Source: Sphingomonas ginsengisoli An et al. 2013 (lineage in GTDB: Bacteria; Pseudomonadota; Alphaproteobacteria; Sphingomonadales; Sphingomonadaceae). Taken from it: a stretch of 64,000 bases of DNA. The notes beneath the pieces were generated by a model. It did not search any database, had not been told where the DNA came from, and saw only the letters and a program-made list of their open reading frames with translations. Shown one piece after another: positions 24,961 through 41,648 of the stretch (the first letter of the stretch is position 1; every line of letters begins with the position of its first letter). The DNA lies in NCBI RefSeq assembly GCF_009363895.1, contig NZ_CP045434.1:2170001-2234000 (forward strand). The letters run 5' to 3'. The position numbers were made by a program, and so were the translations under genes.

Positions 24961-25674
24961 TCAATGAGCGGGGCTGTTTTCCGCCGCTTGCAGCAGGTGC
25001 CACAGCGGGTCCTTCAACCCCGCGACGAACTGGGCATGACGCGCCAATTCTTCAACCGACGCCGCATGGGGGCGGGCCGGACGGACGGCACGCTGCGCCG
25101 GAGCGATCGTCGCGCCGGCGCCGGTGTCGGCGATCACCTCGCTGACGAGCGAGAGGCCGATCTGGCGGCCGCCGGTCAATTCGACATAGACTTGGGCAAG
25201 GAGCTGTGCGTCGAGCAGCGCGCCGTGAAGAACGCGCGCCGAGCGGTCGACCCCGAAGCGGGTGCAGAGCGCGTCGAGGCTGTGCTTGGCGCCGGGGTGT
25301 TTCGAGCGCGCCATCATCAGCGTGCAGATCATCCGGCTCATGCACACCGGATCGCGGCCGCACAGCGCCAGCTCGGCATTTAGGAAGCCGAAGTCGAACG
25401 AGGCGTTGTGCGCGATCAGCGGCGCGTCGCCGATGAAGGCGAGCAGTTCGTCGCAGCGCTCGGCGAAGCGCGGCTTGTCGGAAAGGAAAATCGCCGACAG
25501 TCCGTGCACCGCCTCGGCCTCCGACGGCATCGCGCGGTCGGGATTGAAATAGGCGTGGAAGCTTCGCCCGGTCTCGCAGCGGTTGATCATCTCGACGCAG
25601 CCGATCTCGACCATCCGGTCGCCGGTGGCCGGGTTTACGCCGGTGGTTTCGGTGTCGAAGATGATCTCGCGCAT
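24961..25674 (-). CDS. dnaQ: DNA polymerase III epsilon subunit
   Basis: The 3'-5' proofreading exonuclease of the replicase. The 237-residue protein has the DEDDh motifs: D7 and E9 in FDTETTG, ApLIAHNASFDFGFLN with the second Asp, and HGALLDAQLLAQVY with the last His/Asp. The C-terminal tail would bind the alpha subunit. It lies in the maf-aroE-coaE-dnaQ series that flanks the origin in Caulobacter-type chromosomes. Confidence 0.95.
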   Translation of the reverse strand: MREIIFDTETTGVNPATGDRMVEIGCVEMINRCETGRSFHAYFNPDRAMPSEAEAVHGLSAIFLSDKPRFAERCDELLAFIGDAPLIAHNASFDFGFLNAELALCGRDPVCMSRMICTLMMARSKHPGAKHSLDALCTRFGVDRSARVLHGALLDAQLLAQVYVELTGGRQIGLSLVSEVIADTGAGATIAPAQRAVRPARPHAASVEELARHAQFVAGLKDPLWHLLQAAENSPAH

Positions 25675-25686
25675 GGTCGCCCTAAA

Positions 25687-26280
25687 CTATGCGCCTTTGC
25701 CCGATTCCAGTCCAGCGAGGATCGCGGCGACCTGGGCCTCGGTGTGGGCGAGCGAGCCGCCGGTGTCGATCACCACGTCGGCCCGCGCGCGCTTTTCGGA
25801 ATCGGGGGTCTGGCGAGCGAGGATGGCGGCGAGCTTGGCGTCGGTCATCCCCGGGCGGGCGAGCACGCGGGCGCGTTGGATCTCGAGCGGGGCGGAGACC
25901 ACCACGACCTTGTCGAACGCGGTTTGGCCGCCGGTCTCGAACAGCAGGGGGATGTCGAACAGAAGCACCGGCGCGTCGGCGTGGGCGGCGATGAAACGCT
26001 CGCGCTCGGCTTGGACGGCGGGGTGGACCAGCGCCTCGAGCGCGGCGAGCTCGGCGGGCTGGCCGAGTACCGCCGCCGCCAGCGCCTCGCGCACGACCGC
26101 GCCGCCGTGGGTTGTGCCGGGGAAGCGCTGCTCGATCGCGGGCACCAGCGCGCCGCCGGGGCCCTGCAGCCGGCGGACGACGGCGTCGGCGTCGAAGACG
26201 GGGACGCCCGCCGCGGCGAACATCGCGGCGACGGTCGACTTGCCCATCCCGATCGAGCCGGTCAGCGCAAGACGGATCAT
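25687..26280 (-). CDS. coaE: Dephospho-CoA kinase
   Basis: Last step of coenzyme A synthesis. The 197-residue protein starts MIRLALTGSIGMGKST (P-loop), followed by DADAVVRRL and LLFDIPLLFETG, the CoaE substrate motif. The ATG overlaps the aroE stop (26277-26280), and dnaQ follows after 12 bp. Confidence 0.96.
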   Translation of the reverse strand: MIRLALTGSIGMGKSTVAAMFAAAGVPVFDADAVVRRLQGPGGALVPAIEQRFPGTTHGGAVVREALAAAVLGQPAELAALEALVHPAVQAERERFIAAHADAPVLLFDIPLLFETGGQTAFDKVVVVSAPLEIQRARVLARPGMTDAKLAAILARQTPDSEKRARADVVIDTGGSLAHTEAQVAAILAGLESGKGA

Positions 26281-27125
26281 GCGCGGAGCCGACGGTAGAG
26301 CTCGGCGTCGTCCTCCGCCGAGCGGGGCGGCGGGGCGCCGAAGAAGAGTGGAAAGGCGGCGGCGGCCTGCTCGACCAGCATCGTTAGGCCGCCGGTCGCG
26401 GCGAGCCCGCGGGCTTGCGCGGCGGTGACCAGCGCGGTGGGGTCTGGCGACGTGACCAGGTCAAACACCCACCCGCCCGGTGGCAGCCCGCCAAGGTCGA
26501 GGGTGAAGGGCGGCGCGCCGGTCATCCCGAGCGGGGTAGCGTTGATGAGGCCGTCGGTGGCGATCGGCGCATCGAACGGCTGCGGGCGCTGCTTGAGCCC
26601 GAAGCTGTTGGCGAGGTGGAACGCCTGCTCGGCATCGCGGGCGTGGATGGCGACGTTGGTGAAGCCGAGCGATTTCAGTGCGACCAGCACCGCGCGCGCC
26701 GCGCCGCCGGTGCCAAGCAGGGTCACCGAGTGGGTCGGACGCTGCTCGGCGAGGCGCTTCAGTACCAGCACGATTGCCCCGACGTCGGTGTTGGCGGCGG
26801 TGAGGCCGGTGGGATCGGGCATCAGCGTATTGCAGGCGCCGACCTGGACTGCCTCGTCGCGCGATTCGGTGGCGAGGAGCAAGGCGTCGAGTTTGAGCGG
26901 CATGGTGACGTTGCACCCGCGCCAGTGCGGGTCGGCGCGGCGCTCGGCTATAAAAGAAGGCAGCTCAGCGCGGGTGACCTGGGCGCGGCGATAGTCGGCG
27001 GCGATGCCGAGCTTTTCGAGCCAATAGCCGTGGATCAGCGGCGACTTGCTCTGCGCGATGGGGTCGCCGATCACTTCGGCAAAGCTTGTCCCGAGCGCAG
27101 CCGAGAGGGGTCGATCTGACGTCAT
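26277..27125 (-). CDS. aroE: Shikimate dehydrogenase
   Basis: NADP-dependent reduction of 3-dehydroshikimate in aromatic amino acid synthesis. The 282-residue protein shows GDPIAQSKSPLIHGYW (substrate SxS motif), NVTMPLKLDALLL with the catalytic Lys, LLGTGGAARAVL (nucleotide loop) and INATPLGMTG. The ATG overlaps the maf stop (27122-27125). Confidence 0.95.
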   Translation of the reverse strand: MTSDRPLSAALGTSFAEVIGDPIAQSKSPLIHGYWLEKLGIAADYRRAQVTRAELPSFIAERRADPHWRGCNVTMPLKLDALLLATESRDEAVQVGACNTLMPDPTGLTAANTDVGAIVLVLKRLAEQRPTHSVTLLGTGGAARAVLVALKSLGFTNVAIHARDAEQAFHLANSFGLKQRPQPFDAPIATDGLINATPLGMTGAPPFTLDLGGLPPGGWVFDLVTSPDPTALVTAAQARGLAATGGLTMLVEQAAAAFPLFFGAPPPRSAEDDAELYRRLRA

Positions 27126-27706
27126 GCCGTCAGCGCGCCCCGTCGCCGCAGCTCGCGGAGCAAGGGGAGCAGCGGCAGGCCCTTTATGGTGAAGTGATCG
27201 CCGTCGACGGTGTCGAACAATTGCAGGCCCGGGCCTTCGAGGCGGAAGACACCGACGCAATAGCTGACCTCGGGCCAGTCGCTGTCGAGATACTGCTCGA
27301 TGAACTCCTCGCTGAGCGGGCGGACCTGCAGCCGTGCGCTGTCGGCGTGCGACCACACGACCTCGCTGCCCCTGGCGAGCGCGACCGCGCTGGTGAGGAT
27401 CATCGTCTTGCCGGAGAAGAAGCGGAGGTGCTCGGCGGCTTGCCTACGGCCGCCGGGCTTGGAGAAGCGGCGGCCGTCGATCGAGAGGACACTGTCGCTG
27501 CCGATCACCAGTGCGACCGGATGCGCGGAGGCGACGCTCAGCGCCTTCAACTCGGCCAATCTGGTGGCGAGCGCGGCGTCGTCGCCGGCGAAACCCTGCT
27601 TGACCGCCGCCTCGTCGACACTCGGCGCCGCCACGCCGTATGGCACGCCGGCATTGGCCAGCAACGTGCCGCGGATCGTCGAGGTCGAGGCGAGGATGAG
27701 GTCCAT
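27122..27706 (-). CDS. maf: Maf-family nucleoside triphosphate pyrophosphatase
   Basis: Hydrolyses non-canonical or modified NTPs. The 194-residue product starts MDLILASTSTIRGTLL (the Maf SxxR motif). VIGSDSVLSIDGR and FFSGKTMILTSA follow, with a conserved EYC-like segment (WPEVSYCVGVF). ATG 27706 has AGGAAC 6 nt upstream. It is the first minus-strand gene left of the putative origin, and the left-hand operon starts here. Confidence 0.93.
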   Translation of the reverse strand: MDLILASTSTIRGTLLANAGVPYGVAAPSVDEAAVKQGFAGDDAALATRLAELKALSVASAHPVALVIGSDSVLSIDGRRFSKPGGRRQAAEHLRFFSGKTMILTSAVALARGSEVVWSHADSARLQVRPLSEEFIEQYLDSDWPEVSYCVGVFRLEGPGLQLFDTVDGDHFTIKGLPLLPLLRELRRRGALTA

Positions 27707-27995
27707 ATTTGTTCCTGTGGACAAGCCGTGTGCCCGGCCTAGCGCGACGCGGTGCATAGTCCAATCGGACGGTCCGCGCCCAGCTTCGGGGCAATCATGC
27801 GCGATTCCATCCACGGGCTTCCGGGACAATCCCCAGCCTGTGAGTCATGGGAGAGTCTCAGTCCGACTCGCCGGACTCGCTTGGGCGCGGTGGGATGGCG
27901 GCTGTTGGCAAAATCGGGACGCCCACCTATTCCCCGCGACCAAGCGGCCAACAACTTTCAACAATCATTAGATTCTTAAAGAGAGGAATAAGGGC
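27707..27995. other. Probable chromosomal replication origin (oriC) region, maf-hemE intergenic
   Basis: A 289-bp noncoding gap between divergent maf and hemE. It holds a DnaA-box-like 9-mer TGTGGACAA (27716-27724, one mismatch to TTATCCACA on the other strand), six GANTC sites (27803, 27842, 27853, 27865, 27874 and 27971) and an AT-rich stretch at 27951-27990 (29 of 40 A/T in a GC-rich window) beside hemE. In Caulobacter and Rickettsia the origin lies next to hemE with maf-aroE-coaE-dnaQ on the other side and parAB nearby, as here. Most genes point away from this gap on both sides. It must also hold the maf and hemE promoters. Confidence 0.72.
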
Positions 27996-29054
27996 GTGGC
28001 GAGCGGACCGGCGGGGATGACCGACAAGCCCCTGCTCAGCGTGCTGCGCGGTGAGCGGCGCGACCCGCCCCCGGCGTGGATGATGCGCCAGGCCGGGCGC
28101 TACCTTCCCGAATATCGCGCGCTCAGGGCCGACAAGGGCGGTTTCCTCGACCTCGTCTACGATCCCGAGGCGGCCGCCGAGATCACGCTTCAGCCGCTCC
28201 GCCGCTTCGCGCTCGACGCCGCGATCCTCTTTTCCGACATCCTGATCGTGCCCTTCGCGCTGGGCCAGCAATTGAGCTTCACCGCCGGCGAGGGGCCGCG
28301 GCTGGCGCCCCCGCTCGCCGAGGCCGCGCTGGATGGCCTCCAGCCGGTGCTGGAGCGCCTCGACCCGATCTACGCGACCGTGCGCCGGGTGAAGGCCGCC
28401 TTGCCGCCCCAGACCACCTTCCTGGGCTTTGCGGGGGCGCCGTGGACGGTCGCCACCTACATGGTCGCCGGCGAGGGCAGCCGCGAGCAGGCGGCGGCGC
28501 GGACGTTGGCCTATCAGGATCCGGGCCGGTTCGGGGCAATTATCGAGACAATCGAGGCGCTGACCCTCGATTATCTGATCGGCCAGGCCGACGCCGGGGT
28601 CGACGCGGTGCAGATCTTCGACAGCTGGTCGGGCAGTCTCGCGCCGAGCGAGTTCGAGCGCTGGGTGATCGCGCCGACCGCGCGGCTGGTCGAGAAATTG
28701 CGTTCGGCGCGGCCCGGACTGGCGATCATCGGCTTCCCCAAGGGCGCCGGCGGCAAGCTGCCGGCCTATGCGCGGGAGACCGGGGTCGACGCGCTCGGGC
28801 TCGACGAGACGGTCGATCCGGCCTGGGCGCACCAGGTGCTCCCCGAGGGGCTGCCGGTGCAGGGCAACCTCGATCCGCTGGCGCTGATCGCCGGGGGTGA
28901 GCCGCTCGGGACCGCGGTGGCGCGAATCCGGGCGGCGTTGGCCGAGCGACCCCACGTCTTCAACCTCGGTCACGGAATCCAGCAGACGACGCCGATTGCC
29001 CATGTCGAGCAGCTGATGCAGCTGCTAGGCAAGGCGCCGGGAGGGGTGCTCTGA
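27996..29054 (+). CDS. hemE: Uroporphyrinogen decarboxylase
   Basis: Decarboxylates uroporphyrinogen III to coproporphyrinogen III. The 352-residue protein has the signature WMMRQAGRYLPEYR, the AAILFSDIL metal/substrate loop, GFAGAPWTVATYM and FNLGHGIQQTTP near the end. The GTG at 27996 has AGAGG 9 nt upstream; an in-frame ATG at 28017 (MTDKPLLSVLRG) is a plausible alternative start. It directly flanks the putative origin and is followed by hemJ 2 bp later. Confidence 0.96.
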   Translation: MASGPAGMTDKPLLSVLRGERRDPPPAWMMRQAGRYLPEYRALRADKGGFLDLVYDPEAAAEITLQPLRRFALDAAILFSDILIVPFALGQQLSFTAGEGPRLAPPLAEAALDGLQPVLERLDPIYATVRRVKAALPPQTTFLGFAGAPWTVATYMVAGEGSREQAAARTLAYQDPGRFGAIIETIEALTLDYLIGQADAGVDAVQIFDSWSGSLAPSEFERWVIAPTARLVEKLRSARPGLAIIGFPKGAGGKLPAYARETGVDALGLDETVDPAWAHQVLPEGLPVQGNLDPLALIAGGEPLGTAVARIRAALAERPHVFNLGHGIQQTTPIAHVEQLMQLLGKAPGGVL

Positions 29055-29056
29055 CG

Positions 29057-29518
29057 ATGACGTTCCTGAATGACTATGTCGGCTGGCTCGGCAACGCCTA
29101 TCCGTGGGTCAAGGCCGCGCATCTGACCTTCGTCATCTTCTGGATCGCGGGGCTGTTCCTGCTCCCGCGCTTCTACGTCTACCATCATGCGACCCCGCCC
29201 GGCTCGGCCGAGGATCGCGCCTGGATCGAGCGCGAGCGCCGCACCCGCGCGATCATCCTCACCCCGGCGATGGTGATCGTCTGGGTGCTCGGGCTGGCGC
29301 TGGCCTTTCACCTGGGCGCGTGGGGTGAGGGCTGGTTTTCGGCCAAGCTCGCGCTGGTGGTCGCGCTGACCGGCTATCAGGGGTGGATGGGCGCTTACGG
29401 TCGCAAGCTCGCCAACGGCGCGCGCCCGCTGGAGAATCGCACGCTCAGGATCATGAACGAGATTCCGGGCATCGCCACCGCGCTGATCGTGGTGCTGGTG
29501 ATCGTGAAGCCCTTCTAG
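29057..29518 (+). CDS. hemJ: Protoporphyrinogen IX oxidase HemJ
   Basis: Oxygen- or quinone-linked oxidation of protoporphyrinogen IX in the inner membrane. The 153-residue protein has four TM helices, the conserved His in VKAAHLTFVIFW, LPRFYVYHH and the RxLxNGxRP-like segment GRKLANGARPLENRTLRIMNE. It overlaps nothing but follows hemE by 2 bp, a natural heme pairing. Confidence 0.93.
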   Translation: MTFLNDYVGWLGNAYPWVKAAHLTFVIFWIAGLFLLPRFYVYHHATPPGSAEDRAWIERERRTRAIILTPAMVIVWVLGLALAFHLGAWGEGWFSAKLALVVALTGYQGWMGAYGRKLANGARPLENRTLRIMNEIPGIATALIVVLVIVKPF

Positions 29519-29693: not shown

Positions 29694-30950
29694 ATGCATT
29701 TGAAAGAATTGAAGAAGAAGACTCCCGCTGAATTGGTCGCGATGGCCGAGGAGATGGGAGTCGAGGGCGCCAGCACCCTGCGCAAGCAGGACCTGATGTT
29801 CTCCATCCTCAAGGTCCGCGCCGAAAGCGGCGCCGAGATCATGGGGACCGGCACCATCGAGGTGCTCAACGACGGATTCGGGTTCCTCCGCAGTCCCGAG
29901 GCGAATTATCTCGCCGGGCCCGACGACATTTACGTCACCCCGCAGGTCGTCCGCCGCTTCGGCCTGCGCACCGGCGATACGGTCGAGGGCGAGATTCGCG
30001 CTCCCAAGGACGGCGAGCGTTATTTCGCGCTGACGAAGGTCACCCAGATCAACTTCGACGATCCCGACCAGGTTCGTCACCGGGTCAATTTCGATAATCT
30101 GACCCCGCTTTATCCGAACGAGAAGCTCAAGCTCGACACGCTCGACCCGACCATCAAGGACAAGAGCGCGCGGGTGATCGACATCGTCGCCCCGCTCGGC
30201 AAGGGCCAGCGCGCGCTGATCGTCGCGCCGCCGCGGACCGGCAAGACCGTGCTGCTGCAGAACATCGCGCGGGCGATCACCGACAATAATCCCGAGGTGT
30301 TCCTGATCGTCCTGCTGATCGACGAGCGGCCCGAGGAAGTCACCGACATGCAGCGCAGCGTGAAGGGCGAGGTCATCTCCTCGACCTTCGACGAGCCCGC
30401 GCAGCGTCACGTCCAGGTCGCCGAGATGGTGATCGAAAAGGCCAAGCGGCTGGTCGAGCACAAGAAGGATGTCGTCATCCTCCTCGACTCGATCACGCGT
30501 CTCGGCCGCGCCTACAACACGGTGGTGCCGAGCTCGGGCAAGGTGCTCACCGGCGGTGTCGACGCCAACGCGCTGCAGCGTCCCAAGCGCTTCTTCGGCG
30601 CCGCCCGCAACATCGAGGAGGGCGGTTCGCTCTCGATCATCGCCACCGCGCTGATCGACACCGGCTCCAAGATGGACGAGGTCATCTTCGAAGAGTTCAA
30701 GGGCACCGGTAACAGCGAAATCGTGCTCGACCGCAAGGTCAGCGACAAGCGCATCTTCCCGTCGCTCGACGTCGGCAAGAGCGGCACCCGCAAGGAGGAG
30801 CTGCTGGTCGAGCAGAATATCCTCACCAAGATGTGGGTGCTCCGCCGGATCCTCATGCAGATGGGCACCATCGACGCGATGCAGTTCTTGCTCGACAAGA
30901 TGAAGGACGCCAAGTCGAACGAGGACTTCTTCGCCTCGATGAACCAGTAA
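29694..30950 (+). CDS. rho: Transcription termination factor Rho
   Basis: Hexameric RNA helicase that ends transcription. The 418-residue protein has the N-terminal Rho domain ([20 protein letters not shown]), the cold-shock RNA-binding fold ([20 protein letters not shown]), Walker A ([12 protein letters not shown]), Walker B ([15 protein letters not shown]) and the Q/R-loop region ending MNQ. The codon use is the more uniform, highly expressed type. A strong hairpin follows the stop. Confidence 0.98.
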
Positions 30951-31037: not shown

Positions 31038-31691
31038 ATGTTGAATTTTGCGTCAATCTTCACGCCCGCTGGGCTGGCCGGCCTCGGCCAGATCATCGTC
31101 GGCGACCTGACGCTGGCCGGCGACAATGTCGTCATCATGGGCAGCCTCGCCTCGGGCCTGCCGCCCAAGGACCGCCGCAAGGTCCTCCTGTTCGGCGTCG
31201 GCATGGCGCTGGTGTTCCTGATCGGCTTCGCGCTGATCGCCACTCAATTGCTCAAGATTACCGGGCTGGTGTTCGCCGGCGGGCTACTGCTCCTTTGGGT
31301 CGCCTTCAACATGTGGCGCGGGTTGCACCCGGCCAAGCTCGTCGAGTGCGACGATCCCGACACGCCCGAGATCGAGGGGCCGCCGCCCTCCAAGACGCTG
31401 GTTCAGGCGGCGATTCAGATCACCATCGCCGACCTCAGCATGAGCGTCGACAATGTGCTGCTGGTCGCCTCGATCGCGCGCGAGAATCCGGCGCTGCTGT
31501 TCGTCGGCCTGTCCTGCTCGGTGCTGTTCATGGGGCTGGCGGCCAATTACGTCGCCAAGCTGATCGAGCGCTTCCCGTGGATCAACTATATCGGCCTGCT
31601 GGTGATCCTGTATGTGGCTGGCAAGATGATCGTCGAGGGCTGGCTCGGCGGCGACCATGTGCTCGGGCTGCGGACGGTGTTCGGGCTCTGA
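31038..31691 (+). CDS. TerC/YjbE family integral membrane protein
   Basis: A 217-residue protein with about seven TM helices. It has the paired acidic TerC motifs VGDLTLAGDNVVIM (TM1) and IADLSMSVDNVLLVA (mid-protein), each with two Asp in a membrane helix, consistent with metal-ion transport, such as Mn2+ efflux in TerC relatives. Substrate unknown. A cytoplasmic loop between the two halves is rich in Asp/Pro. Confidence 0.88.
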   Translation: MLNFASIFTPAGLAGLGQIIVGDLTLAGDNVVIMGSLASGLPPKDRRKVLLFGVGMALVFLIGFALIATQLLKITGLVFAGGLLLLWVAFNMWRGLHPAKLVECDDPDTPEIEGPPPSKTLVQAAIQITIADLSMSVDNVLLVASIARENPALLFVGLSCSVLFMGLAANYVAKLIERFPWINYIGLLVILYVAGKMIVEGWLGGDHVLGLRTVFGL

Positions 31692-31726: not shown

Positions 31727-33004
31727 GTGACTGATCAGGAAACGATTTTCGCCCTGTCGAGCGGACGGCCGCCGGCGGGGATTGCGGTTATTCGCCTGAG
31801 CGGTTCGCGCGCGCACGCTGCGGCGGCCGCGCTGGCGGGGGCGTTGCCGCCGGCACGCGAGGCGCGGTTGCGCACGTTGCGGGCAAGCGACGGGAGCGTG
31901 CTCGACCAGGCGTTGCTGTTGCGGTTCGATGGGCCCGCAAGCGCGACCGGCGAGGATCTGGTCGAGTTCCACTGCCATGGCGGCCGCGCTGTGGTGGCGG
32001 CGGTCTGCGCGGCGCTTGCCGCTCAGCCGGGAGTGCGCGAGGCCGAGCCAGGCGAATTCACCCGCCGCGCGGTGGTCAACGGGCGGATCGACCTTACCGA
32101 AGCCGAGGGGCTTGCCGATCTGCTCGAAGCCGAGACGGAGTGGCAGCGTCGCGCGGCGGTCGGCGCTGCGGAGGGCAGCACCCGACGCCTGATCGAAGAC
32201 TGGCGCCGCCGCGTGATCGAGCTGTCAGCGCAGGCCGAGGCCGCGATCGATTACGTCGGCGACGAAGATGAGACCGCACTCGACGAGCCCGCCTTCAGCG
32301 CCGCCATTGTCGCGCTGGCCGATGAGTGGCGCGTCTGGCTGGCGCGGCCACGCGCCGACCTTCTTCGCGAAGGTGTGCGGATCGTGCTCGCCGGTCCGCC
32401 CAACGCGGGCAAGTCGAGCCTGTTCAATGCGCTGGTTGGGAGAGAGCGGGCGATCGTCACCGAGGTCGCGGGGACAACCCGCGATGCGCTCGAAGCGCCA
32501 ATTGCGATCGACGGGGTGCCGCTCGTGCTCGTCGACACCGCGGGACTGAGAGAAACAGGTGACCAGGTCGAGGCGATCGGGGTTGAGCGCGCTCACGCAC
32601 AGGTGGCCGGGGCCGGTATCGTCCTTTGGCTCGGCGCGCCCGACGAGGCGCCCGACCATTCGCGCGTCATCAAGGTGCATGCGCAAATTGATCGCCGCGG
32701 CTCCCCACCGCCAAGCAGTTTCGGCGTGTCGGCGTTGACTGGCGAAGGCATTGCTACGCTGCTTGCGGCAGTCCGCGATCAGGCGGCCAGCGCGTTTCCG
32801 CCGCCGGATCTCACAAGCCTCAATCGTCGGCAAGCCGATTTGCTAGCCGAGGCCTTGAACGCCTTAAGTTGCGTTTCGCACGACATCGTTATCGCGGCGT
32901 ATCAATTGCGTCTGGCCCGCGAGGCTCTGGATCGGATTACCGGGCAATCCAGCACGGAAGAAATGCTCGACTCGCTCTTTGGTCGGTTCTGTCTCGGTAA
33001 GTGA
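31727..33004 (+). CDS. mnmE: tRNA modification GTPase MnmE
   Basis: With MnmG makes the cmnm5 modification of wobble U34. The 425-residue protein has an N-terminal formyl-THF-binding domain ([19 protein letters not shown]), the G domain ([30 protein letters not shown]) and the C-terminal FCLGK motif with C422. It starts at GTG (31727). Its TGA is directly followed by a parS site. Confidence 0.96.
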
Positions 33005-33020
33005 TGTTTCACGTGAAACA
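33005..33020. other. parS centromere site 1
   Basis: A perfect 16-bp palindrome TGTTTCACGTGAAACA, identical to the bacterial ParB-binding parS consensus, between mnmE and mnmG. It starts on the base after the mnmE stop. Confidence 0.95.
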
Positions 33021-33041
33021 CGGCTGCGCTATGAGGCCCGC

Positions 33042-34721
33042 ATGTTTGACGTAATCGTCATCGGCGGGGGTCATGCCGGCTGCGAGGCCGCCGCTGCAGC
33101 CGCGCGCCGCGGGGCAAGGGTGGCGCTCGTGACGATGCAAGCCGACAATCTCGGCCAGATGAGCTGCAACCCGTCGATTGGCGGCGTCGGCAAGGGTCAT
33201 CTCGTCCGCGAGCTTGACGTGTTCGACGGGCTCATGGCCCGCGCCGCCGACCGCAGCGCGATTCATCGGCGCATGCTCAACCGGAGCAAGGGTCCGGCGG
33301 TGCAAGGGCCGCGGGTCCAGGCGGATCGGCGGCTTTATGCTGAGGCCATCAAGACATTGATGGCGGAGAGCGGTGTCGAGGTCGTCGTAGGAGAAGCGAC
33401 CGAGCTCCTCGTTCAAGGCCAGACGGTCGTGGGTCTCCGGCTCGCCGATGGCACGACTCTCGGTGCGCGGGCGGTCGTCGTCACCGCCGGGACCTTCCTC
33501 GACGCTGTCATCCATCTCGGCGAGCAAGCGACGCCGGCAGGACGGCGAGGCGAGCGGGCGGCAGTCGTGCTGTCGGGCCAGCTGCGCGCGCTAGGTCTGG
33601 CACAGGGGCGTCTCAAGACCGGGACGCCCCCGCGGCTCGACGGGCGCACAATCGACTGGGCGAGACTGCAGGAGCAGCCATCGGACCGCGACTGTTGGCA
33701 GATGAGCGCGCTCGACGACGGCGCCCGTCCGCCACAACTCGCCTGTGCGATAACCCGAACCACTGCAATGACGCACGATTTGATCCGCGCGGCCGAACAT
33801 CGCTCGCCGCTTTATTCGGGCGCGATTGCGGGGCGGGGACCGCGCTACTGCCCGTCGATCGAGGACAAGGTGCGGCGGTTCGGTGACCGCGATGGGCACC
33901 AGGTCTTTCTCGAACCCGAGGGGCTGGACAGCGAACTCGTCTATCCCAACGGCATCTCGACCTCGCTGCCCGAAGACGTTCAGCGCGACTTCGTCCGCTC
34001 GATCCCTGGGCTCGAACGCGCCGTCATTGTCCGTCCGGGTTATGCGATCGAATATGAGCATGTCGATCCGCGCCACCTCGATGCGCGGTTGCAGAGCAAG
34101 GCGATTAGCGGGCTGTTTCTCGCGGGACAGATCAACGGCACGACCGGCTATGAGGAAGCGGCGGCGCAGGGTCTGGTGGCCGGGATGAACGCAGCGGCGC
34201 ACGCGCGCGATATTGCCCCGGTTCTGTTCGACCGCCGCACCAGCTACATCGGGGTGCTGATCGACGACCTCATCGTCCAGGGCGTAAGCGAGCCCTATCG
34301 AATGATGACGGCGCGGGCCGAGCATCGGTTGGCTCTACGCGCGGACAACGCCACGGCGCGATTGGGAGAGGCGGCGATTGCCTCGTGCGCAGTTGGTGAG
34401 CGGAGGCGGCAGCAGATTGAAGACCACTTGCGCTTCCGCGGCACGACCGCCTTCGCGAATACGGAAGAGGGCCGCGCCGATGCTCTGTACGCGCCATACG
34501 TTGCGCGGCAGGAGCGCGAGTGGGCGGCGATGCGGGCGGCGCAGGCGACGATGATTCCGGCTGACCTCGACTTCGCGACCATTGCGGGAATGTCGATCGA
34601 AATGGCCGAGCGGCTGTCGGCAGCGCGGCCTGATAACCTCGACCAGGCTTCGCGCATTCCGGGAATCAGTCCCGCGGCCTTGTCCGCGCTACATCTGATG
34701 ATCGCGCGTCGGGCGGCATGA
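33042..34721 (+). CDS. mnmG: tRNA uridine-5-carboxymethylaminomethyl synthesis enzyme MnmG (GidA), short form
   Basis: FAD enzyme that partners MnmE. The 559-residue protein starts [20 protein letters not shown] (FAD-binding), with [61 protein letters not shown] and [17 protein letters not shown]. It is about 60-70 residues shorter than typical MnmG. The loss is mostly in the helical region after RADNATARL, while the C-terminal YVARQ...[14 protein letters not shown] is kept. There is no frameshift, so it may be a compact but functional form. The ATG at 33042 lies 37 nt after the mnmE stop. Confidence 0.95.
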
Positions 34722-35335
34722 TCGAGCAGGTTAGTGATGCCGCGCAGCGCGATGTTTCACGTGAAACATTCGAGAGGCTCGAGCGCTACGTGGCGCTACT
34801 CAGAGGGGGAAACGAGCAGCAAAATCTCATTTCGGCATCGACACTAGATAAGATTTGGTCGCGCCACATTATCGATTGCGCGCAGCTCCTTCGCTTCACA
34901 CCGCACGGAGCGATTGCCGATATCGGGTCGGGCGCTGGCCTTCCGGGGTTGGTCATCGCCATCCTCTCCGAGCAGCCGATCACTCTCATCGAGCCGCGCC
35001 GCCTTCGCGTCGAGTTTCTCGAACGCTGCATCGCTGACCTCAACTTGCCCCACGTGCGCGTCTTCCATGGCAAGGCGGAGCGCTTGAGCGGTCGGTTCGA
35101 CGCGATCACGGCGCGCGCGGTAGCATCGGTCGACAAATTATTTGCTGCCGCACACCATCTGTCGCATCCTGAGACCGTCTGGGTGCTCCCCAAGGGGCGC
35201 AATGGCGAAAACGAACTGGCCGCGGCGCAGGCCTCGTGGCAAGGTCGTTTCCGAACGGAGCGCAGCATCACCGAGGGGGACGCGGTGATCGTGGTGGCTT
35301 CCGAGGTCTCAGCCAGGCGGAAGGGGCGAGGATGA
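34718..35335 (+). CDS. rsmG: 16S rRNA (guanine527-N7)-methyltransferase RsmG (GidB)
   Basis: Methylates G527 of 16S rRNA using SAM. The 205-residue protein has the SAM-binding [17 protein letters not shown] motif, VFHGKAERL and [15 protein letters not shown]. The ATG overlaps the mnmG stop (34718-34721), and its stop overlaps the parA ATG. Codons 12-17 (encoding VSRET) carry a complete parS site. Confidence 0.96.
34753..34768. other. parS centromere site 2, inside rsmG
   Basis: The same perfect 16-bp parS palindrome TGTTTCACGTGAAACA as at 33005, here within the first 20 codons of rsmG and extended to an 18-bp palindrome (34752-34769). It lies 579 bp upstream of parA. Confidence 0.95.
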
Positions 35336-36117
35336 TCCGGATTGCGGTCGCCAATCAGAAGGGCGGGGTGGGCAAGACCACTACCGCCATCAATCTTGCG
35401 ACGGCGCTGGCGGCTACCGGTTGGCGCGTGCTGTTGCTCGACCTCGATCCGCAGGGCAATGCGTCGACCGGGCTGGGCGTCAGCCAGGCGGCGCGCGAGC
35501 GGTCGAGCTATGACGTGCTGATGGGCGATTCGACGCTCGAGCAAGCGGTGGTGCCCTCGCGGGTCCCGCGCCTCGACCTCGTCCCCGCGACGCAGGATCT
35601 GTCGGGCGCCGAAGTGGAGATGGTCGATCTCGAGCGGCGGACCCACCGCCTGGCCGATGCGCTCGACGCGGCGCCGGCGCGGTGGGACATCGTGCTGATG
35701 GACTGCCCGCCCTCGCTCGGCCTGCTGACGGTCAATGCGCTGATTGCCGCCAAACAGTTGCTGGTGCCACTGCAATGCGAGTTCTTCGCGCTCGAGGGGC
35801 TGAGCCAGTTGCTACAGACGGTCGAGCGGATTCGCACCCGCTTCAACCCCGACCTCGGCATCCTCGGGGTCGCGCTCACCATGTTCGATCGCCGCAACAG
35901 CTTATCGCGGCAGGTCGCCGAGGACGTCCGCGCCTGCCTCGGGTCGGCGGTGTTCGAGACGGTGGTGCCGCGCAACGTACGACTGTCGGAAGCGCCGAGC
36001 CATGGGCTGCCGGCGCTGATCTACGACCTGCGCTGTTCGGGTAGCGAGGCCTACGTCCGGCTGGCCAAGGAATTGATGGATCGCCTGCCGCAGCCGGCGG
36101 TCGGGGAGGCGGCATGA
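35332..36117 (+). CDS. parA: Chromosome partitioning ATPase ParA
   Basis: Deviant Walker ATPase that moves ParB-parS complexes. The 261-residue protein starts [21 protein letters not shown] (deviant Walker A), followed by DLDPQGNASTGLG and VLMDCPPSLGLLTVNAL (Walker B). The ATG overlaps the rsmG stop (35332-35335), and the stop overlaps parB. Confidence 0.96.
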   Translation: MIRIAVANQKGGVGKTTTAINLATALAATGWRVLLLDLDPQGNASTGLGVSQAARERSSYDVLMGDSTLEQAVVPSRVPRLDLVPATQDLSGAEVEMVDLERRTHRLADALDAAPARWDIVLMDCPPSLGLLTVNALIAAKQLLVPLQCEFFALEGLSQLLQTVERIRTRFNPDLGILGVALTMFDRRNSLSRQVAEDVRACLGSAVFETVVPRNVRLSEAPSHGLPALIYDLRCSGSEAYVRLAKELMDRLPQPAVGEAA

Positions 36118-36998
36118 ACGAACTTCGTCAGCGTGGTCTCGGCCGCGGGCTGTCGGCGCTGCTCGGCGATGCGCAGCCCGAGCTCGAGGCGGCGCGCGGG
36201 GGCGGGGTGCGTGAGATCGACGTCGGCGCGATCAGCCCCAACCCGCAGCAGCCGCGGCAGGCGTTCGACGATGCCGCGATCGCCGAGCTCGCCGCGTCGA
36301 TCGCCGAACGCGGGGTGCTCCAGCCGATCCTCGTCCGCGACCTCAAGGATGGGCGCTTCGAGCTGATCGCGGGCGAGCGGCGCTGGCGCGCCTCGCAGCG
36401 CGCGCAGCTGCACAAGATCCCGGCGCTGGTCCGCGAGTTCGACGCGGCGGCAAGCGCCGAGGTGGCGCTGATCGAAAACGTCCAGCGCGAGGATCTGAAT
36501 GCGCTCGAAGAGGCCGACGCCTACGCCAGCCTGATCGAGCGTTACGGTCATGGCCAGGATGCGGTCGCCAAGCTGGTCGGCAAATCGCGCAGCCATGTCG
36601 CTAACCTGTTGAGATTACGCGATCTTCCCGAATATGTTCGTGAGCTTCTCCGGCGCGGCGAGCTCAGCATGGGTCACGCGCGCGCGGTAGCCAGTGCCGA
36701 AGATCCCGAGGCGCTGGCGCGCGAAGTGATCAGCGGTGGCCTGTCGGTTCGCCAGACCGAGCAGCTTGCCAAGGCGGTCCGACCGGGCGCGGGGACCGAC
36801 CTGGCGCGCGGTTCGGCGCGCAATGGCGGGCAGGTCCAGGATGCCGACGTCGCCGCGCTCGAGCGGCAGTTGGGCGACGTGCTCGGCCTGCGGGTCAAGA
36901 TCGCGGCCAAGGGCAGCGCCGGGACGGTGACGCTGCATTTCTCGACGCTCGACCAGCTCGACCTCGTCTGCCAGCGACTGACCGGCGAGCCGATCTAG
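36114..36998 (+). CDS. parB: Chromosome partitioning protein ParB
   Basis: CTP-dependent clamp that loads at parS. The 294-residue protein has an N-terminal ParA-interaction stretch (LGRGLSALLG), the ParB/Srx CTPase motifs (GVLQPILVRDL, LIAGERRWRASQRA, ENVQREDLNALEEADAY), an HTH (GKSRSHVANLLRLRDLP) and a C-terminal dimerisation domain. Its two parS targets lie 1.3 and 3.1 kb upstream. It converges with holA 3 bp away. Confidence 0.96.
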   Translation: MNELRQRGLGRGLSALLGDAQPELEAARGGGVREIDVGAISPNPQQPRQAFDDAAIAELAASIAERGVLQPILVRDLKDGRFELIAGERRWRASQRAQLHKIPALVREFDAAASAEVALIENVQREDLNALEEADAYASLIERYGHGQDAVAKLVGKSRSHVANLLRLRDLPEYVRELLRRGELSMGHARAVASAEDPEALAREVISGGLSVRQTEQLAKAVRPGAGTDLARGSARNGGQVQDADVAALERQLGDVLGLRVKIAAKGSAGTVTLHFSTLDQLDLVCQRLTGEPI

Positions 36999-41023: not shown

Positions 41024-41455
41024 TTAGCCGGAGACGGTGCCGCGGCGGATGTCGCGGGCGCGGGTCAGGATGATGTCCTCGAGCTTCTGCACGGTGGCGG
41101 CGGCGACCGGCGCGTCGACCCACTGGCCGCCCTGGTTGACCTGGCGGCTGGCGGCGACCCGCAGCGCGTCGGCGCGCAGGTCCTGGTCGAGGATCGAGAC
41201 GGTCAGCTTGACCCGCTCACCCGGCGCCTGGGGGTTGGCGTACCAGTCGGTGACGATCACTCCGCCATTGCTGTCGGCGGTGATCAGCGGCGCGAAGCTC
41301 AGCGTGTCGATCGCGGCGCGCCAGAGGTAGGTGTTGACGCCGATCTGGGTCAGCCGGGCGGGGGCGAGCCGGGTCGGCACGTCCCGGTTGCGCGCGCACC
41401 CGGTGGCAAGCAGCGCGAGGGGAATCAGCGCGGCGGTGAAAGTGGTGCGGACCAT
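41024..41455 (-). CDS. DUF3576 family lipoprotein
   Basis: A 143-residue protein with a lipoprotein signal ([12 protein letters not shown], lipobox at about residue 20) and a DUF3576 domain ([20 protein letters not shown]...GGVIVTDWY). It is alphaproteobacterial, often beside leuS, and of unknown function in the envelope. A good promoter lies 44 bp upstream. An upstream in-frame reading would cross that promoter and is rejected. Confidence 0.88.
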
Positions 41456-41498
41456 CGGTTTTCGTCTTTCTGCCTTGAAGCGGTCAGGGTTGGGCGGC

Positions 41499-41526
41499 GT
41501 TATAGATGCTGTGCCAATGCGGGCAA
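41499..41526 (-). promoter_or_regulatory. Candidate promoter for the DUF3576 gene (and possibly leuS operon)
   Basis: On the minus strand, TTGCCC (41526-41521), a 16-bp spacer and TATAAC (41504-41499), placing transcription start about 37 bp before the ATG. The -10 match is good; this is one of the clearer promoters in the window. Confidence 0.45.
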
Positions 41527-41648
41527 GCGGCACGTCGGTGGAACCGTTCTGTGGATTCAATGTCACATCGGCCGGCGAACTCGGAACTGTCGTGGAACAT
41601 TCATCTTCGCGAGGCTATATCCTCAACACAGGGAGTGGTGACTCGACG

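Follow-up and report, generated by a model that had tools for sequence, protein, structure and literature searches.

Gene neighborhood and sequence elements of the maf-hemE gap

The DNA analyzed here (the window) is a 64,000-nucleotide stretch corresponding to bases 2,170,001-2,234,000 of a single-contig genome of 3,037,290 bp. It contains an intergenic gap of 289 bp (27707..27995; genome 2,197,707-2,197,995) between the divergently transcribed genes maf (27122..27706, minus strand, start at 27706) and hemE (27996..29054, plus strand, start at 27996), both identified by NCBIfam models. The initial annotation had proposed this noncoding gap at a switch in gene direction as the probable chromosomal origin of replication, and its boundaries hold as described. 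To the left of maf the NCBIfam models identify dnaQ (24961-25674), coaE (25687-26280) and aroE (26277-27125), all on the minus strand, while the plus strand to the right carries hemJ (29057-29518), rho (29694-30950), mnmE (31727-33004), mnmG (32979-34721), rsmG (34718-35335), parA (35236-36117) and parB (36114-36998). A TerC-family gene (31038-31691) is situated between rho and mnmE. The flanking order dnaQ-coaE-aroE-maf|hemE...parB given by the initial annotation is correct in its gene names and had left out hemJ and the TerC-family gene; the family matches of aroE, maf, hemJ and parA score under every curated cut-off shown. Among named hemE genes the nearest belongs to Sphingomonas sp. BN140010 (85% identical).

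As is typical of the hemE-side oriCs of Alphaproteobacteria, the region is intergenic, directly adjoins hemE, is richer in A/T than the genome (gap GC 0.60 against a window GC of 0.694) and includes an AT-rich stretch, with 29 A/T among the 40 positions of 27951-27990 on direct reading. An apparent low-GC stretch turned out to consist of masked bases and was rejected as a feature. Close to maf lies DnaA box 1 (27716..27724), which on the minus strand reads TTGTCCACA and differs by one mismatch from TTATCCACA; it is followed by a largely conserved block, CTAGCGCG, on the plus strand (27739..27746). Three weaker boxes, each with three mismatches and named by their place in the alignment discussed below, occupy the middle of the gap: box 2 (CCATCCACG, 27807..27815, plus strand), box 3 (CAATCCCCA, 27827..27835, plus strand) and box 4 (TGACTCACA, 27839..27847, minus strand), the last two being nearly back to back. 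Counted against the DnaA consensus, the gap of this strain has a single box at up to two mismatches. Interspersed with the boxes are five GANTC (CcrM-type) sites starting at 27803, 27842, 27853, 27865 and 27874 (27803..27878), with a sixth at 27971. Further towards hemE are the plus-strand element TGTTGGCAA (27903..27911) and the AT-rich stretch proper (27949..27990, plus strand), a proposed unwinding region that would also form the hemE leader, in which C recurs every three and every four bases (C-spacing alone being scored, with z 7.6 at lag 3, 5.5 at lag 4 and 3.9 at lag 7).

The two sequence clues offered by the initial annotation, namely the 9-mer at 27716-27724 and the AT-rich 40-mer, are both present; taken alone they are no better than chance. 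The window has two one-mismatch DnaA boxes where 1.85 are expected, and when 150 kb are ranked by A/T content, the best 100 bp of the gap (0.50) come about 11th, in a tie with others. In a genome-wide scan exact TTATCCACA occurs at seven sites, none of them in the window. The exceptional clue within the window itself is the density of GANTC, which the initial annotation had not used: against a window mean of 0.54 per 300 bp, at least six sites per 289 bp are reached in just 12 of 6372 overlapping segments of the 64 kb, and all 12 overlap the gap.

Conservation of the gap and of its elements

To the genome under study we added 36 genomes of the same genus, of which 29 gave a locus and seven gave none. 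The gap is kept in 28 of these 29 relatives, with a length of 274-343 bp, and in the 29th it is cut by a contig end. The 28 relatives and our strain make up an alignment of 29 gaps, in which site counts were compared with those of dinucleotide shuffles (20 rounds). Invariant or near-invariant blocks in this alignment are TGTGGA by maf, TAGC.C, TCCAC, CTGTG, CG.ATC/CGACTC, TGTTGGCAA and CCC; five of the six columns of TGTGGA, which falls at box 1, are invariant and the sixth nearly so, and CTGTG, which falls at box 4, is invariant. DnaA boxes with at most one mismatch amount to 1.69 per gap versus 0.036 in shuffles, an enrichment of about 47-fold, and those with at most two mismatches to 3.21 versus 0.47. 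At the stricter setting 27 of the 29 gaps have at least one box and 14 at least two, so that the several DnaA boxes expected of a hemE-side oriC are found for the genus rather than for our strain alone. GANTC is likewise enriched 3.4-fold (5.17 per gap versus 1.51), and TGTTGGCAA, present once in every one of the 29 gaps (1.00 per gap versus 0.002), is kept more strictly than any DnaA box. CtrA sites (TTAA-N7-TTAA) with at most one mismatch are absent from the gap of our strain and found in one of the 29 gaps, at the shuffled rate (mean 0.03 versus 0.031). At two mismatches there are three in our gap and at least one in 18 of the 29, with a mean of 0.86 versus 0.51 and a largest shuffled round of 0.79. 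An IHF site with at most one mismatch occurs once in our gap and in four of the 29 gaps, equal to the shuffles.

Within TGTTGGCAA, the hexamer TTGGCA (27905-27910) is a putative -35 element, and TATTCC on the plus strand (27928..27933) is a possible -10 element; in all but one of the 29 gaps a spacer of 17 bp separates TTGGCA from TA. The whole unit (27903-27933) is likely to be the hemE promoter. Marczynski and co-workers are said to have described an essential hemE promoter in the Cori of Caulobacter. This recurrence of TTGGCA-17-TA ahead of hemE would also fit a gap that is a mere two-way promoter region for maf and hemE, at which DnaA acts as a transcription factor and replication does not start, and both DnaA and CcrM are described as affecting transcription in Caulobacter. 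We consider such a reading very improbable, as it leaves unexplained the linkage to parS, the place opposite dif and the inversions centered near the gap that are presented below.

A wider set of loci indicates how far these elements extend. Of the loci L096-L151 and L161, whose records mostly carry Sphingomonadales titles and which were taken for Sphingomonadaceae on that basis (a few titles being odd or those of MAGs), 56 of 57 had 400 nt upstream of hemE. At least one DnaA box is found there in 54 and at least two in 39, with peaks of place and strand that resemble those of the genus; a further peak near -60, formed by 8 loci, is absent from the genus. Among 20 loci of other Alphaproteobacteria five have a box. 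Whereas TGTTGGCAA is found in all 29 gaps of the genus, these 56 loci give 24 TTGGCA matches at the corresponding distance, 17 of which have TA at the 17-bp spacer.

As regards overall conservation, the gap has a mean identity of 0.655 and a longest invariant run of 9 in 11 genomes. Of two control stretches, that between hemJ and rho gave a mean identity of 0.592 and a run of 2, and that between leuS and a porin-like frame gave 0.824 and a run of 7, which went against the gap. The latter control was counted invalid because a DUF3576 gene lies inside it, and the former is weak because three of its 11 stretches measure 541-694 bp versus 150-193 bp in the rest. The DUF3576 gene occupies 41024-41566 on the minus strand, upstream of leuS, and is overlapped on the opposite strand by a weak porin-like ORF.

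Loss of the DUF299 neighbor without change of layout

The initial annotation had remarked that the DUF299 gene situated beside hemE in Caulobacter is missing, and indeed the corresponding model PF03618 has no match in the whole 3,037,290-bp genome and none across the genus, for which 37 genomes including ours were searched. Of 24 genomes from other families of the order 23 have it, and in 22 of these 23 it lies at most 0.7 kb from hemE, the two being at opposite ends of one contig in G049. In loci L096-L151 and L161 maf and hemE are 1,088-1,427 bp apart, wherever both were found, and in the one case that was checked the intervening ORF is DUF299. The distance is 289-312 bp in L093-L095, of which L093 and L094 are genus members already counted (G036 and G029), and L095, a MAG titled Sphingomicrobium, has the same maf|hemE arrangement, so that the genus may be Sphingomicrobium.

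From the missing gene the initial annotation had concluded that the origin would be unusually compact, and this conclusion does not stand. The distance between DUF299 and hemE was set aside as a measure, since first-start ORF calls are ambiguous (median 234.5 bp, range 7-405, in 54 loci), and the layouts were therefore compared by the positions of boxes relative to hemE and by the distance to maf. The minus-strand box peak lies at -300 to -281 in the genus and at -280 to -261 in the others, while plus-strand boxes at -200 to -161 are common to both sets, as are those on the minus strand near -180 to -141. With or without DUF299, the boxes thus keep similar distances from hemE; the gene was lost and the layout kept, and therefore the origin has not been compacted. 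This suggests that DUF299, a customary flank, can be lost without change to the origin layout.

Position relative to dif, parS and dnaA

A dif-like palindrome is located outside the window at genome position 657,834-657,861 (657.8 kb), and about 4 kb or less from it the sense of KOPS-like GGGNAGGG octamers switches from plus to minus. A pattern built from this site of our own genome has a best match with at most two mismatches in all 19 genomes tried, and the geometry was measured in 17 of these (G025 and G031 were left out), with single contigs treated as closed circles even though G004 and G028 have a second contig. Outgroups were left out because in these AT-richer genomes the pattern is at most modestly above its reversed control. 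In all 17 genomes the gap lies opposite the terminus, as expected of a hemE-side oriC: the arm from the gap to dif on the hemE side spans 0.474-0.531 of the chromosome (mean 0.502, sd 0.017), the genomes being related and not independent samples. Taken alone, this test does not separate the gap from places within about 40 kb. Judged by the sense of the KOPS-like octamers in 40 samples together with the window, the origin falls at about 2.13-2.18 Mb; the sense is mixed between 2.28 and 2.58 Mb, and of the octamers within 40 kb to the left of the gap four have the right-arm and two the left-arm sense, the octamer being hardly commoner than its reversed control (527 versus 452).

The two parS sites of the genome (33005..33020 and 34753..34768, both TGTTTCACGTGAAACA; two mismatches allowed in the scan) both lie 5-7 kb from the gap, and with parA and parB they form the nearby parABS system expected of this origin type. 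PMC8116508 proposes to use parAB for anchoring ori and notes that, in Sphingomonadales, dnaA has no conserved place near it. An origin at dnaA, an arrangement common in other bacteria, is scarcely credible for this genome: its single dnaA match (792,590-796,069, L001), at 794 kb, is 136 kb from the dif-like site and therefore near the terminus.

GC skew and inversions around the gap

The evidence that conflicts with the gap comes from GC skew. The initial annotation had named a skew switch located elsewhere as counter-evidence, and formally this is what is found: in 424 kb around the window the minimum is at 2,131,060, 67 kb left of the gap, and the displacement persists after gene-strand correction. 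Genome-wide (40 samples and the window) the minimum falls near 2.02-2.13 Mb. The strand-corrected codon-3 skew has its best change point at 2.130-2.135 Mb and fits the gap worse, although this fit and the coarse skew bins include some masked bases, read as zero GC; the corrected polarity is that of the right arm from about -67 to about +50 kb and of the left arm from there to about +150 kb. A skew change, which is a supporting rather than a defining sign of a hemE-side oriC, is hence not seen at the gap of our strain, and the relatives are mixed. Across the gap of ten relatives the corrected skew has the expected positive sign in four, is near zero in three and reversed in three (mean -0.001); the six beyond the four closest are those with a near-zero or reversed value. 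The local minimum within 40 kb on either side lies 2.9-8.4 kb right of the gap in G026, G009, G014, G017 and G004, which include the four close relatives with 4-8 kb, and 36-40 kb from it in the remaining five. The reversed cases are G019 (L201-L204), G011 (L209-L212) and G015 (L193-L196), in which skew-based origin finding may therefore fail. As the relatives disagree with or without gene-strand correction, raw GC skew was set aside as an arbiter; PMC1914354 also holds that skew is no good universal predictor of origins.

Inversions that swap material between arms around one center are a known mark of origins, visible as X-shaped alignments. To locate them we compared by blastn the 40 kb on either side of the locus in ten relatives, picked from those with hemE on a long contig, with 424 kb of our genome and kept matches of at least 500 bp. 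Inverted blocks on opposite arms are found in all ten. Measured from the gap, their centers fall at -0.2 to 5.1 kb for six relatives and at 10.8-11.3 kb for the four closest, i.e. near the gap and not at the skew minimum. In G022 a further 6.3 kb sits on the opposite arm without being inverted, and in the four closest relatives 26-31 kb are inverted on the same arm. The stretch from -26 to -60 kb of our genome is inverted relative to these four. The gene thiC, at -74 kb in our genome, was located in 17 genomes: in 14 it lies inverted on the right side and in three, ours included, on the left, and it points at the gap in all 17.

By skew alone, an origin at -67 kb is the simpler reading. The actual start would then be near 2,131,060, where the raw skew switches sharply, where the strand-corrected codon-3 change point falls (2.130-2.135 Mb) and which is also roughly opposite the dif-like site (0.515), and the gap would be a former or unused origin region. 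We regard this as improbable on several counts. No cluster of DnaA-like boxes was found there with the two patterns scanned, parS is about 72 kb away, and the inverted blocks center near the gap instead. As an antipode of dif, the nearby thiC performs worse than the gap in 13 of 17 genomes (RMS 107 versus 42 kb, the 107 being partly driven by one genome at 307 kb). Moreover, the stretch from -26 to -60 kb is inverted with respect to the four close relatives, whose minimum sits 4-8 kb right of the gap. The skew conflict is discounted because the sign across the gap varies among relatives and the flanking blocks are inverted; probably these blocks carried their own skew through the inversions and thereby displaced the skew signpost from the gap.

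The maf-hemE gap as probable chromosomal origin

Given the DnaA boxes and GANTC sites kept across the genus, the parS sites at 5-7 kb, the place opposite dif and the inversions centered near the gap, we consider it very probable that the maf-hemE gap is the chromosomal origin, belonging to the hemE-side type of Alphaproteobacteria. The proposal of the initial annotation is thus supported, with the corrections on compactness and skew given above. The place beside hemE is the expected one for the class; less usual are the loss of the customary neighbor and a skew signpost about 67 kb off.

Building on the observed sites, conservation and geometry, we predict the following course of DnaA binding, opening, methylation and transcription. 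DnaA would bind the one good box near maf and the three weak mid-gap boxes, with box 1 and the nearly back-to-back pair of boxes 3 and 4 serving as its seat, and its filament may then grow towards hemE and open the AT-rich stretch at 27949-27990. The promoter-like TTGGCA-17-TATTCC is aimed at hemE, and its transcript would run through this unwinding stretch. CcrM-type methylation of the six GANTC sites could report whether the origin has just been copied, and ParB bound to the two parS sites would segregate the new origins. A more far-reaching version of this scheme may be put forward tentatively, and we think it rather unlikely that all its parts hold together: in this family the origin would lack the CtrA brake and be timed by the GANTC cluster and an embedded, position-fixed hemE promoter whose transcription through the AT-rich leader helps opening, a variant, non-GAT trinucleotide track would mark the strand on which DnaA loads, and frequent origin-centered inversions in the genus would displace the skew switch, so that skew tools miscall the origin by tens of kb.

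These results place the origin for a genus in which the skew, in at least our own strain, points tens of kb away. They also offer a cheap way of placing origins that is independent of skew, using the distance to dif, parS and the center of inversions between relatives. Judging from site counts, GANTC methylation rather than CtrA would be the conserved control mark here.

Comparison with known origins

Among the literature matches listed, which came from searches that did not use maf|hemE by name, there is no paper on the origin of this genus. The origin can be set beside three described systems. The first is the BUS with DnaA-trios (PMC8287927), which it resembles in the succession of GC-rich DNA, a track of roughly three-base periodicity and AT-rich DNA; unlike the trios, the track here, read on the hemE strand, is of a CAA/CTA/CAT-like kind in which C recurs every three and every four bases, and 3'-GAT-5' is not plainly given. 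The second is the Cori of Caulobacter crescentus, which, according to PMC1914354 and PMC4468827, likewise lies beside hemE, has an AT-rich stretch of about 40 bp and moderate or weak DnaA boxes and is linked to parABS. Cori, with its five CtrA sites, has hemE on one side and COG1806/DUF299 on the other (PMC1914354, PMC4468827), whereas our gap has lost DUF299 and shows no enrichment of CtrA sites, and in both these respects the gap departs from the Caulobacter type in the strict sense. The third is the hemE-linked origin of the family itself: according to PMC4741004, DoriC predicts an oriC near hemE in most Sphingomonadaceae, and in Sphingopyxis granuli TFA and its relatives the intergenic region holds putative DnaA boxes that are conserved, together with a putative unwinding element. 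Unlike in Sphingopyxis, the left neighbor here is maf, not DUF299, and the boxes of our own strain are weaker; with the oriC of Sphingopyxis granuli TFA (PMC4741004) the maf-hemE gap shares the hemE flank, several putative DnaA boxes and a putative unwinding element.
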